This document shows, piece by piece, positions 31,419 to 36,782 of a stretch of 64,000 nucleotides of DNA. Origin of the DNA: Methanocella paludicola SANAE (GTDB lineage Archaea; Halobacteriota; Methanocellia; Methanocellales; Methanocellaceae); contig NC_013665.1 of NCBI RefSeq assembly GCF_000011005.1, forward strand, positions 744,001-808,000. Reading direction: 5' to 3'. The position numbers and the translations under genes were made by a program. Each line of letters starts with the position of its first letter. Position 1 is the first letter of the stretch. The notes below the pieces were generated by a model, which saw only the letters and a list, made by a program, of their open reading frames with translations, made no database searches and was not told the DNA's origin.

Positions 31419-32778
31419 AGAGTGTAAATTTTTTTGTTGAGACTTCCTTTTTTCTCTTTTATTACTTTTCTCTTTTATGCGAACCGTTCTATATACATGC
31501 TTCTACTCGGTCTTTGAAGTAGACCATGAGTTGATTCATGATCGTGCCCCATTCCCTGACGGCCATTTTCCATTTCTCCGACTCGTCCATAACAATCAGG
31601 TAGAGTATTTTAAAAAGGCTGTCGTCGGTGGGGAAACTAGATTTGTTCTTGGTGATCTTTCTTATCTTCCTGTTGAAACTCTCGATGGGATTCGTCGTGT
31701 AGATAAGCCTTCTTATCTCCGGAGGATACTTGTAGAATGTTGAGAGGCAAGGCCAGTTACTTCGCCAGCTCTTTATGGCGTACGCGTACTTAGCACCCCG
31801 TTTCTCCTCTAACCGGTCCAGGGCATCAAGGCCCGCCTCCTCGCTGGGCGCCGTGTAAATTTCCTTCATGTCCTTGCAGAACGGCCTTCTGTCCTTGTAA
31901 TTCACGTACCTGGTGCTGTTACTTATCTGGTGGACGATGCACCGTTGTATTTCAGTCCTGGGGTACGCGGCATGTATGGCCTCCTCGAACCCATTGAGCC
32001 CATCAACGCTGGCGATCAAGATGTCCTTCACCCTATGGTTCCTGAGGTCGGTTAGTATGCTCATCCAGAACTTACTGCTCTCAGCCTACCCAATCCAAAT
32101 GCCCAGGACCTCCTTACACCCCTCAACCGTGATGGCATACACCAGGTAAGCCGTCTTCTTGATCACGTGGCCGTCCTGCCTCACGTTGAACATCACCCCA
32201 TCAAGGAAGATGAAAGGGTACAATGGTTGCAACGCGCGGCACTGCCACTCCCTGGCCAACGGTAGGATCTTGTCAGTAACCTTGCTAACCATCTCCGCCG
32301 ACACTTCCACACCGTACACCCTCCTCATCTGCGCCTCGATGTCCCGGTTACCCAATCCACTGGCAAACAAAGAGACGATGGTATCCTCCAACTCACTACT
32401 GATCGAGCGCTCATACTTTTTAACGATTACAGGCTCGAACTCCCCTTTCGAATCCCTGGGAACCTCCAGATTTATCTCGCCAAACTGGCTCCTAACAGTC
32501 TTCGAAGAATGACCATTCCGAGAGTTATCCGAGACCTTGCTCTTCCAATCATACTTGGAATACCCCAATGTCTGGGTCCTCTCCTCTTCCAAGGCCTCCT
32601 GCAAAACCTCCTTTATCTCCCCGATAAAAGCCTTCTCAACATCCCCGCCACGCTTCAAATCATTATCCTTAAGCCAAGCCAGGCCCTGATCTGCTCCTTC
32701 GTAAACAACTTAGACATGCTAAACCTCCTTAACACACTATTAAGTAAAAGAAGTTTCAGCAAAATCCATTACACACCC
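31419..32778 (-). mobile_element. IS256-family element
   Basis: About 1.36 kb inside the IS66 element. Imperfect terminal inverted repeats: GTGTAA then TTTTGTTGAGACTTC from 31422 on the left; GTGTAA then TTTTGCTGAAACTTC on the complement ending at 32774. Flanks GTCAAAACG (31410) and GTCCAACG (32779) could be a decayed target duplication. Exact ends are uncertain by a few bases. Confidence 0.8.
31489..32717 (-). pseudogene. IS256-type (mutator) transposase with frameshift and in-frame TAG
   Basis: Reads from ATG 32717 (MSKLFTKEQIRAWLG) with AAGGAGGT upstream. One base is missing near 32670 (TTAAGGATAATGAT), shifting into the frame with NDLKRGGDVEKAF. After FIFLDGVMF (first Asp) and VLGIWIG there is an in-frame TAG at 32086-32088 where GAG (Glu) would be expected. 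The same frame continues AESSKFWMSIL with the second Asp in IASVDGLNGF and the Glu in TTNPIESFNRKIR. Two defects make it inactive unless TAG is read through and the frameshift is a sequence error. Confidence 0.88.
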
Positions 32779-33095: not shown

Positions 33096-33392
33096 AAAAA
33101 ATTAGTTAATGCAGACAGGCTCGACAACAGAAATCAATATGGGCCGTCCCGATGGCGCGAGCCCCCCTTAGGGGCGCTTAGGTCTTTTCGCATTGACCTT
33201 TCTATGGCTTACTGCACGACCGCCCCTGCCTCCGAATACCCAAAGTGGCGTCGGGCTTTGCACGAGATATTAGATTCACACCAAAATCGTACCTCACCGG
33301 CGCTGCCACGCTCGGAGTGCTTGATTTTTCGCTCATGGCATAAAATAGGGTTTTTACAATACTCTACGTGGGTTCCGTGAGGAGGAACAACA
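33096..33392. other. intergenic region with hairpin and promoter of the Gly/Trp peptide gene
   Basis: No gene recognised. A stem AGCCCCCC-TTA-GGGGCGCT with one mismatch lies at 33160-33178 and is followed by a short T-run. An AT-rich CATAAAATA near 33338 is a candidate TATA box for the gene at 33393. Confidence 0.4.
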
Positions 33393-33626
33393 ATGGACAT
33401 GAAAAAGCTAGCCATTTTCGTTCTTCTCGCATTAGCTGTACTGGTACTGGCTATCCCGGCGACCGCCTGGTGGGGCGGTCTCGGCTGGGGTGGCTGGGGT
33501 CTCGGCAGTCTCGGCTGGGGCGGTCTCGGCTGGGGCGGTCTCGGCTGGGGTGGCTGGGGCTGGCCCCTGTGGGGTGGCTGGGGCGGTCTCGGCTGCGGCA
33601 CCTGCGGCTGGGGCGGCTGGTGGTAA
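33393..33626 (+). CDS. small exported Gly/Trp-rich repeat protein
   Basis: 77 residues: a Lys-led signal peptide (residues 1-25, cleavage near PATA/WW) followed by a mature part of about 52 residues made almost only of Gly, Trp and Leu in GWGGLGWGGL-type units. It has 14 tryptophans and one CGTC cysteine pair near the end. GAGGAGG lies eight bases before the ATG, a strong sign of a real gene. The DNA shows a 15-base tandem repeat (CTCGGCTGGGGCGGT). No family is recognised. It could be an envelope-associated or self-assembling peptide; this is speculation. Confidence 0.8.
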   Translation: MDMKKLAIFVLLALAVLVLAIPATAWWGGLGWGGWGLGSLGWGGLGWGGLGWGGWGWPLWGGWGGLGCGTCGWGGWW

Positions 33627-33830
33627 GACCACTGCAAAGCCTCTCAACTGATCAGCTACGCGAGAACGACGATAAGAAGTTCAGTAGGCGTCCAGGACGC
33701 CTACGATTTTATTTTACCTGTCCCCTTACTAACCGGATGCCTACGAAACTTCTGTTCATTACAAAGCATATCTTTTTATACTATGGTCCCGCTTAATCAT
33801 GTGCAGAACCAATCTGCATGAGTAATATCA

Positions 33831-34176: not shown

Positions 34177-34587
34177 ATGCAGGACGTTAGCGCGGCGATA
34201 CAGGGAGGGCACGACGGCATCGAGCTAATAGACGTAGTTTTTGTGTTCTCGAACGTGAAGCTCGTCCGGGAGCTTGTGCAGGACCACATCCGCCAGCTCG
34301 AGGAGCTGGGCGACGTCAGTAAAGGCCAGACCGAGGGGATGCGGGAGATGATCATAGCAAAGCAGAAATCGCTTTACTTAAGCCTCTCTGAAGTGGAGAG
34401 GCTTCTGGAGAACATCATCGACGCCAGCATCACGCCGCAGGCCCGTTCCGAGGGCATGCATAATATTCAGCTTAATTCCGAGCAGTCGAGGGCCATGGTC
34501 GGCGCCATCGTGTTCGCGATCAACCACATGTCGAAGTTCGTGCCGGGGTCGGGCATCGGCACAGGGCTTCCCGAGTCCATCTTTTGA
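34177..34587 (+). CDS. hypothetical helical protein
   Basis: 136 residues, mostly helical, no membrane segment or signal. Charged helices (LVQDHIRQLEELGDVSKGQTEGMREMI) are followed by a serine- and leucine-rich helix and a Gly-rich end (VPGSGIGTGLPESIF). Family not recognised. Its stop overlaps the open frame of the YkgJ-type gene and the two are probably co-transcribed from the TATA box at 34146. Confidence 0.7.
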   Translation: MQDVSAAIQGGHDGIELIDVVFVFSNVKLVRELVQDHIRQLEELGDVSKGQTEGMREMIIAKQKSLYLSLSEVERLLENIIDASITPQARSEGMHNIQLNSEQSRAMVGAIVFAINHMSKFVPGSGIGTGLPESIF

Positions 34588-34625
34588 CCGAAACCGTTAT
34601 TCTTTTTGCATTGTTATGCGTGTGC

Positions 34626-34922
34626 ATGAGCGGATGCGTCCAGTGCGGCTTGTGCTGTAAGAAGTACGGTATGAGGCTCGAGGCCTCGGCGCTGGATATT
34701 GCCCGGTGGCGGCTCGACCGCAGGGACGATATTTTGGCTCACGTAGGCATCGACTTCGTCGACGGGGAAGTCTCGGGCGGGCGTCTCTGGGTGGATGAGG
34801 CCGGTAACCGTGTTAAGCAGTGCCCGTTCCTCGAATTGAGGGCCGATAACAAGTACTATTGCGGCATCCATGAGTCGAAGCCTGAGGTTTGTACCTGGCA
34901 CTATTGTGAAAAATATTTTTAA
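34626..34922 (+). CDS. YkgJ-family cysteine-cluster protein
   Basis: 98 residues. The motif CVQCGLCCKKYG at the start, then CPFLELR, YYCGIHESKPEVC and CEKYF, gives the eight-cysteine pattern of the YkgJ (zinc/iron-chelating) family. An upstream TTG at 34584 would add a hydrophobic stretch, but ATG 34626 gives the usual family start just before the first cysteines. The proteins probably bind a metal or Fe-S cluster; the substrate is unknown. Confidence 0.8.
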   Translation: MSGCVQCGLCCKKYGMRLEASALDIARWRLDRRDDILAHVGIDFVDGEVSGGRLWVDEAGNRVKQCPFLELRADNKYYCGIHESKPEVCTWHYCEKYF

Positions 34923-34979: not shown

Positions 34980-35484
34980 GTTCGGTCGGTATCTCGAACC
35001 TCTCCAAAGGAATTAAACCACAAATTTTCTTTTTAGATTTTACTCACAAAATCTCTAAGTCTCTAGCACACCGTCAACGCACGAACTCTCGAATACACAG
35101 GGCAGTGCTCGAACGGCACTAACGCGCTAACCCGAAAAGAAAGCTCGAAAACTCGAATGCACGTTCGAAACGCTAAAAGAGATAGCACTAACATTCTAAA
35201 GCCCGGCTAAAACGCCAACGACACCAATCTATTGCATATTAACTTAATGGGGAACGACCGGGTTTTTAGAGTGTTCGTGCTATCTCGTTTAGCGCTTCAA
35301 ACGTGATTTAGAGACTTAGAGACTTCTTTTCGGGTTAGCGCGTTAGAGGCTTAGAGCACTGCCCAGAGTATTAGAGAGTTCGGGCATTGACGGTGTGCTA
35401 GAGCATTCGAGGCTTCGTGAGTAAAATCTAAAAGAAAAATTCGTGGCTTATTTCCTTTGGAGAGGTTCGAGATACCGACCGAAC
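34980..35484. repeat. 505-base imperfect palindrome between convergent genes
   Basis: Left arm 34980-35206 and right arm 35257-35484 are reverse complements with perhaps one mismatch in five, around a loop of about 50 bases. Perfect stretches include GTTCGGTCGGTATCTCGAAC at the outer ends, TCTAGCACACCGTCAA, and CGCGCTAACCCGAAAAGAA. Within the arms a TTAGAG/CTCTAA-type hexamer recurs many times. No transposase or good open frame lies inside. It sits between the stop of the YkgJ-type gene and the stop of glutamate dehydrogenase and could be a two-way terminator, a MITE-like element or a structured RNA. Confidence 0.9.
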
Positions 35485-35546
35485 AAACCAGCGCCTGCAG
35501 GAAATACGGCATGAGCTCGGGTAATAAAAAAAATTTAAATCACTCT

Positions 35547-36782
35547 TTATACGGAACGAGCCTTCATCGCCTGCACGATATTCTTGATCCCTACAAGGTA
35601 GGCAGCACGATACATATCGACCTTATAGTCCTTCGAGGCATCATTTACACTACGGAACGCCTTTTTCATGACATCCTTAAGGTTCGCCGACACTTTGGCG
35701 CCGCTCCAGCCGTACCCCTCCCGGTCCTGGGCCCACTCGAAGTAGCTCACGACGACGCCACCACCGTTAGCCAGCACATCGGGTATCACGATGATATCAC
35801 GGTCATGCAGTATCTCGCTCGCCCGCATGTCCACGGGGCCATTGGCAAGAGACAAAACCGACCGCGCATGGATCTTATCGGCGTTCGCAGCAGTGATGAC
35901 ACCCTCACGCGCCGCAGGCGCCAGCACATCCACGTCCATCTCCAGAAGCTCCTCGTTAGTGATGTCCCTGGCCTTATCAAAGCCCTTTACAGAGCCCGTC
36001 TCTTCCTTATGGTACATCAGCGCCGGTATGTTCAGGCCGCTCTCGTTATATACCCCGCCGGTGGAGTCGCTCACCGCTACCACCCTCCGGCCCTTCTCGT
36101 GCAGGATCTGGGCGATGCTCCCCCCTACGTTACCGAAGCCCTGGATGGCGAACGTGGAGCAGTCGCAGTTATGGATGCGCTTTACCTCCTCCATGACGAA
36201 GATCCCGCCCCAGGCGACCGCGGTGGTCCTGCCCTTGATGCCACCGAGCTCGACGGGCTTGCCGGTGATGATGTCAAGCTGGTGGTGGCCCACCATGCGC
36301 TCGTACTCGTCCAGCATCCAGCCGATAGCTTCGGGGGAGACGTTCATATCGGGCGCGGGGACGTCCAGCGTGGGGCCTATAACCGGGTAGATGGCCCGGA
36401 TATATCCCCGGCATACGCGCTCCAGCTCTTTCTTAGACAGGGCCTTATGGTTGGCGATTATCCCGCCTTTTGAGCCGCCGTATGGCAGCCCCAGCAGGGC
36501 GCACTTGATGGACATGAGCATGGAGAGCGCAGTGACCTCCTCCTCGGTCACGCTGCAGCCGAGGCGTATGCCGCCCTTGTAGGGGCCGAGCGCGTCATTG
36601 TGCTGGGCCCTGAGGGCCGTGATCATCCTGATGCCACCATCATCCATATGGACGGGATAGTTCACGATGAGCTTGCGCCGCGGGTAGGAGAGTATGGTCC
36701 TGTATCTTTCCTCGATGCCCGCCAGCTCACAGGAGCTCCCGATGATGTCGAGCGTACTTTTATAAAAGTCCTCATCTTTCAT
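35547..36782 (-). CDS. gdhA: glutamate dehydrogenase (Glu/Leu/Phe/Val family)
   Basis: 411 residues. Interconverts glutamate with 2-oxoglutarate and ammonia using NAD(P). Seen are the substrate site PYKGGIRLG with the nearby KCALLGLPYGGSKGG (catalytic lysine region), the APDMNVSPEAIGWMLDEY segment, and the dinucleotide-binding FAIQGFGNVGG. The length is normal for archaeal enzymes. A TATA-like TTTATATTTATAG on the minus strand about 30 bases before the ATG suggests a near-leaderless transcript. It is divergent from the threonine synthase gene. Confidence 0.92.
   Translation of the reverse strand: MKDEDFYKSTLDIIGSSCELAGIEERYRTILSYPRRKLIVNYPVHMDDGGIRMITALRAQHNDALGPYKGGIRLGCSVTEEEVTALSMLMSIKCALLGLPYGGSKGGIIANHKALSKKELERVCRGYIRAIYPVIGPTLDVPAPDMNVSPEAIGWMLDEYERMVGHHQLDIITGKPVELGGIKGRTTAVAWGGIFVMEEVKRIHNCDCSTFAIQGFGNVGGSIAQILHEKGRRVVAVSDSTGGVYNESGLNIPALMYHKEETGSVKGFDKARDITNEELLEMDVDVLAPAAREGVITAANADKIHARSVLSLANGPVDMRASEILHDRDIIVIPDVLANGGGVVVSYFEWAQDREGYGWSGAKVSANLKDVMKKAFRSVNDASKDYKVDMYRAAYLVGIKNIVQAMKARSV

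Follow-up and report, generated by a model that had tools for sequence, protein, structure and literature searches.

The 505-base palindrome at positions 34980-35484 of the analysed window (64,000 nucleotides of Methanocella paludicola SANAE, positions 744001-808000 of the single 2,957,635-bp contig NC_013665.1) is probably a gene-less, MITE-like member of a class of palindromic elements linked to GxxExxY genes. These elements would work in the manner of REPIN/RAYT systems with an unrelated enzyme, by which the gene-less copies would be mobilised. The palindromes form dispersed families, GxxExxY genes are coupled to the repeats, and the arms carry short words with a near-invariant skeleton and a predominantly inward polarity. 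In a related genome of another genus (G001) and in a second M. paludicola family, the arms of solitary palindromes are homologous to arms that enclose a GxxExxY gene.

A dispersed family of long palindromes

An inverted-repeat search resolved the palindrome into an outer pair of arms (34980-35113 and 35351-35484; 134 nt, 87% complementary) and an inner pair (35119-35200 and 35265-35346; 82 nt, 84% complementary). The initial annotation had described a long imperfect palindrome with long arms around a 50-base loop; the arms do pair over nearly their full length, but the loop (35201-35264) is nearer 64 bases. The fold prediction that it had proposed as a check gave −306 kcal/mol for the RNA compared with −136 ± 6.5 kcal/mol for dinucleotide shuffles (z = −26), and its statement that the palindrome has no coding capacity agrees with a longest stop-free frame of 47 aa. 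The left arm (34980-35200, plus strand) holds inward-pointing CNCNRA words of the CTCTAAG, CTCGAA and CACTAA types, six inward and none outward (shuffle mean 2.4). The right arm (35265-35484, minus strand) is the reverse complement of the left, with eight words inward and one outward (shuffle mean 2.2), and a comparison of arm consensus sequences showed that its arm-specific differences are fixed and common to all copies. The recurrence of the hexamer TTAGAG/CTCTAA noted previously is real and is part of the wider word CNCNRA, which points inward in both arms.

The information content of the flanks revealed a weakly conserved outer extension (35485-35512, minus strand; AAACCAGCGCCTGCAGGAAATACGGCAT, with the family consensus TTTCCTGTNGGCGCTGATTT on the other strand), and across the family the element runs about 20-30 weakly conserved bases past 35484. 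The palindrome lies between convergent stops, as had been stated. According to the list of open reading frames, a plus-strand gene encoding a cysteine-rich protein of 112 aa (34584-34922) ends at 34922, and a minus-strand gene of 411 aa (35547-36782), glutamate-dehydrogenase-like from a reading of its sequence, has its 3' end at 35547; both are outside the element. No match up to E = 0.1 was obtained when four loci were searched with Rfam covariance models, and no known IS family matched the palindrome. Elsewhere in the window, repetitive open frames on both strands (33209-33796; PQPRPPQP / GRSRLGWLG) are probably a low-complexity repeat tract.

A genome search for further copies, also proposed in the initial annotation, identified 40 places of the approximately 500-bp family scattered over the M. 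paludicola chromosome (counted by the terminal motif, with 40 forward and 39 reverse matches and none for the reversed control). The tree of the copies was star-like. G001, which belongs to the same taxonomic family as M. paludicola, contains dozens of palindromes of about 540 bp that are homologous over approximately 110-130 bases of the arm. A pattern derived from the inner arm matched 62 times in M. paludicola and 113 times in G001, with no match in any of the 392 further genomes searched from this phylum. The palindromes are absent from two further genomes of this taxonomic family (G002 and G003), and no homologues were found in collections of plasmid, phage, viral and GTDB r220 contigs.

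The MITE-like origin suggested initially is supported as regards dispersal, given the 40 copies and the homologous family in another genus, but not as regards two other features, since target-site duplications were not found and the enzyme linked to the repeats is none of the known transposases. Among 39 M. paludicola and 43 G001 copies, no direct repeat stood out at fixed offsets, a comparison limited by fuzzy outer ends, and no sharp outer end was seen in the 505-bp family. The idea that the outer extension represents a repeated target site was rejected, as it was found genome-wide only at palindromes and there were no empty sites. A shared terminal TATGCC motif was too weak to be retained. 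The outer junctions of the 505-bp family come in two kinds, with TGATTT or its reverse complement AAATCA beside GTTCGG. Just beyond some palindromes (flanks L018, L026 and L057) the terminal sequence GTTCGGTCGGTATCAC was present in additional, incomplete copies, which suggests that the ends grew step by step or received nested insertions. About 25 of the G001 copies (L082-L112) share extra conserved flanks 100-250 bases outside the palindromes, and beyond these flanks are CACAAAGGCGAATAAGG arrays in tandem whose sequence matches the arms around a further GxxExxY gene (L124); these flanks and arrays are nested element families.

GxxExxY genes between inverted repeats

The linked protein matches PF13366 (PDDEXK_3, E = 2×10−42) and NCBIfam TIGR04256. 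Among 14 proteins D62 and K74 were invariant and E72 nearly invariant, a catalytic-type D...E-x-K arrangement, and the protein is a predicted PD-(D/E)XK nuclease. No solved structure matched the GxxExxY profile and no relatives were confirmed in viral contigs or phages. The literature searched contained no described role or repeat association for GxxExxY, which is not in itself proof of novelty.

Searches for the family gave six genes in M. paludicola, all six located between long inverted repeats, and seven matches in G001. Over the Methanocellaceae loci, 14 of 16 GxxExxY genes had bracketing inverted repeats that scored 40 bits or more, whereas none of 216 controls with swapped flanks reached this level (maximum 34.6 bits); the 16 loci are not all independent, as L123, L127 and L130 are near copies of each other and L133 and L135 likewise. 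The two loci with no bracketing repeat were L134 in G001 and L126 in G002. The words around GxxExxY genes were directed inward in 21 loci and outward in 5 (226 and 70 matches, respectively).

In G001 a decayed GxxExxY gene (L066) is located inside a palindrome, and two further GxxExxY genes (L128 and L131) are flanked by arms homologous to solitary palindromes. At all three loci the arms are 87-91% identical to those of the solitary copies (for L128 the median identity was 87% and the best 91%). A second family in M. paludicola gave the same picture. The arms of the L127 gene, shared with the near copies L123 and L130, recur as about 35 solitary palindromes of approximately 320 bp (nine checked; L161-L169 and further places), so that the M. 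paludicola genome itself holds copies of a single family both with and without the gene. For the 505-bp family no gene-bearing copy was found in M. paludicola, where none of the six sets of GxxExxY arms matches it. Its homology to the G001 gene-bearing element is distant (about 125 bp of the arm at approximately 72% identity). Given that the 505-bp family is without a coding partner in its own genome, its assignment depends on the homologues in G001 and on the parallel of the second family.

Eight bacterial GxxExxY loci were also examined. The inverted repeats at the Gemmatirosa (91 bp, 86%) and Bacteroides (30 bp, 90%) loci exceeded 40 bits, the Sphingomonas locus reached 37.4 bits, just over the control maximum, and the Bernardetia locus (33.7 bits) was within the control range, with repeats that directly adjoin the gene; no bracketing repeat was present at four of the eight. 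At least 79 occurrences of the sequence next to the Gemmatirosa gene were counted in two replicons. In Sphingomonas parapaucimobilis the GxxExxY gene (L153:1471-1899), with its short inverted repeats, interrupts the fabD-fabG run of fatty-acid genes. The enclosure of a GxxExxY gene by the same kind of hairpin in G001 suggests that this uncharacterised and little-studied nuclease family serves to spread or maintain such repeats in archaea as well as in bacteria.

Arm variation, chromosomal setting and competing explanations

With copies oriented by the loop, arm-to-arm identity in the M. paludicola family was 0.797 within copies and 0.798 between copies (permutation 0.7979 ± 0.0025), and the corresponding values for G001 were 0.834 and 0.835. 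There was consequently no compensatory change in the arms of either family. This indicated that pairing was inherited from the ancestor and not kept by compensation, and that selection does not preserve the pairing as such. The two arms of a copy showed no conversion between them, and conversion of long tracts from copy to copy is doubtful, since linkage between variable columns was at background beyond about 10 bases.

The skeleton of the words was near invariant in M. paludicola and, independently, in G001. The consensus arms contained 35 inward and 2 outward matches to CNCNRA, with fixed C, C and A and variable N positions. In the inward words of M. paludicola the skeleton columns had 0.17 changes on average compared with 4.46 for the N columns (p = 1×10−25, an inflated value given that CNCNRA was chosen after viewing this alignment), and in the more independent replicate provided by G001 the entropy was 0.09 for skeleton and 0.83 for N columns (p = 2×10−8). 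Private mutations were also fewer in the skeleton (10 in 105 columns compared with 102 in 319, p = 1×10−5), which hints at a constraint on resident copies that would be unexpected for dead transposon copies. The simplest reading of a fixed skeleton with free N positions is that the words are recognised by a protein and that some constraint continues at resident copies. The initial annotation had proposed that the structure grew by local duplication of the hexamer. This was not demonstrated: the word array is common to all copies, and similar arrays also form unrelated arm families around GxxExxY genes.

The copies were unevenly placed with respect to genes. Convergent gene ends flanked 22 of 39 copies compared with 7 of 61 gaps in the pooled local baseline (p = 2.6×10−6), and divergent gaps were avoided (2/39 compared with 26/61, p = 2.5×10−5); these contexts were taken from simple codon-usage gene calls (22 convergent, 15 other and 2 divergent), and an earlier, cruder count had given 24, 15 and 0. 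The copies also avoided one part of the chromosome, with none in the 708 kb (0.71 Mb) around position 0 (P = 0.00085), the probable replication origin judging from the presence of orc1 (698-1780); a second orc1-like gene is located at 631851. Similarly, none of the 40 best places of the second, approximately 320-bp solitary family fell within 0.57 Mb across the origin. Control of transcription ends, which had been suggested from the convergent position of the window palindrome, is not demonstrated by this bias, which fits a function at such sites and a tolerance of insertion there alike.

One could take these maps, together with the invariant skeleton of the dispersed copies and its depletion of private mutations, to mean that the palindromes are host sites, for example arrays of protein-binding words with a role in insulating or ending convergent transcription or in organising the chromosome away from the origin, with the GxxExxY genes as secondary residents. 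We consider this unlikely. The palindromes are absent from G002 and G003 in the same family, the arms show no compensatory change, and the same distribution would be expected of a mobile element that had been cleared from promoters and from the vicinity of the origin; furthermore, the presence of GxxExxY genes between such arms would be left unexplained.

A second explanation, which we regard as less likely still, reverses the order of events, such that the GxxExxY genes are mobile cassettes resembling homing genes that entered in or near the centres of pre-existing palindromes. The centres do receive insertions. An IS256-family element was located at the centre of five M. paludicola copies (loops L050-L053 and L070), in the region that corresponds to the loop of the window palindrome, and in four of the five it was flanked by 8-bp target duplications of palindrome sequence (CACTAACA, CGCATTTT, GAGCCCGG and CGATTGCA). 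The IS256 elements are thus later insertions and not the palindrome's own gene. Given that five of the eight IS256-family transposase matches in the genome were in palindromes, the centres are strong insertion targets. (The window also holds an IS256-family transposase gene, at 31489-32658, that is interrupted by an in-frame stop.) Bacterial GxxExxY genes that interrupt gene runs such as fabD-fabG are likewise in line with a cassette. However, different GxxExxY lineages are found in different arm families, most Methanocellaceae GxxExxY genes are so placed whereas insertion sequences occupy only 5 of 40 copies, and the GxxExxY genes directly adjoin the arms with no ends of their own seen.

That the palindromes are ordinary MITEs mobilised by a transposase of a known type (DDE or HUH, a RAYT being one candidate), the full-length parent having been lost or gone unrecognised, would account for short, dispersed, gene-less elements with terminal inverted repeats, but is improbable given that no target-site duplication was found and that the gene between matching arms, both in G001 and in the second M. 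paludicola family, is GxxExxY and not a transposase. A structured RNA under selection for pairing would fit the very stable predicted fold, but the equal arm identities within and between copies of the M. paludicola and G001 families contradict it, no Rfam match was obtained, and its probability is accordingly very small. Finally, the suggestion that the palindromes are MITEs of the IS256-family elements found between the arms of five copies can practically be dismissed, as it is contradicted by the junctions: the insertion sequences have separate ends with the 8-bp duplications described above, and two clearly different types occur in the same kind of arms.

Relation to known systems and a proposed mechanism

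The reading of the window palindrome as a gene-less GxxExxY-linked element is best set beside the REPIN/RAYT systems, in which dispersed extragenic inverted repeats that form hairpins are tied to a RAYT gene (Bertels and Rainey 2011, PMC3116915). In both cases a genome may contain several hairpin families, each associated with a gene that lies beside the same repeats and belongs to a single protein family, and movement in trans is presumed. However, the protein linked to the present palindromes is a PD-(D/E)XK family member (PF13366/TIGR04256) and not a Y1/HUH tyrosine transposase, the repeats are palindromes of about 320-540 bp composed of arrays of 8-base words instead of pairs of approximately 20-bp REPs, and the gene is located between the arms. 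Because the enzyme is unrelated, the palindromes are not members of the REPIN/RAYT group. With MITEs they share small size, lack of genes, dispersal, terminal inverted repeats and gene-bearing relatives with the same arms; they differ from MITEs in that the inverted repeat spans nearly the whole element, that no target-site duplication was found and that the gene-bearing relatives are without a transposase. Insertion sequences are known to target extragenic palindromes (REPs; Tobes and Pareja 2006, PMC1525189), and the IS256 insertions described here are a similar case, although here the insertions lie at the centres of 500-bp palindromes, the host is an archaeon and the insertion sequence is of the IS256 family.

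The Rpn (YhgA-like) proteins are small, patchily distributed PD-(D/E)XK nucleases that are thought to act in recombination. They and the GxxExxY proteins belong to different families, and we know of no cognate palindrome family for Rpn.

We infer that the GxxExxY protein moves or renews the palindromes, by a route of cutting followed by repair. In this model the nuclease or a partner would recognise the word arrays, or the cruciforms that they can form, and cut at these sites; repair and copying would then carry the palindrome to new intergenic sites, and gene-less copies would be moved in trans, as is supposed for REPINs and their RAYTs. A broader generalisation is that GxxExxY proteins serve as the enzymes for a class of palindromic repeats, selfish or domesticated, that is widespread among archaea and bacteria and so far undescribed, with the nuclease recognising inverted arrays of short words and spreading or renewing them; we put this forward tentatively, as its chances seem to us somewhat short of even.

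If true, this would explain why repeats of the CACAGAGG and CGCGAAG types are found beside GxxExxY genes in several bacterial phyla, and it would account for a class of long hairpins that are otherwise noted as curiosities. The word skeleton provides a precise footprint for a binding or cutting assay, and GxxExxY, a protein family known mainly by its motif, would acquire a testable role. The palindromes and their linked nuclease would then represent a second, chemically unrelated solution to the arrangement proposed for REPINs and RAYTs.
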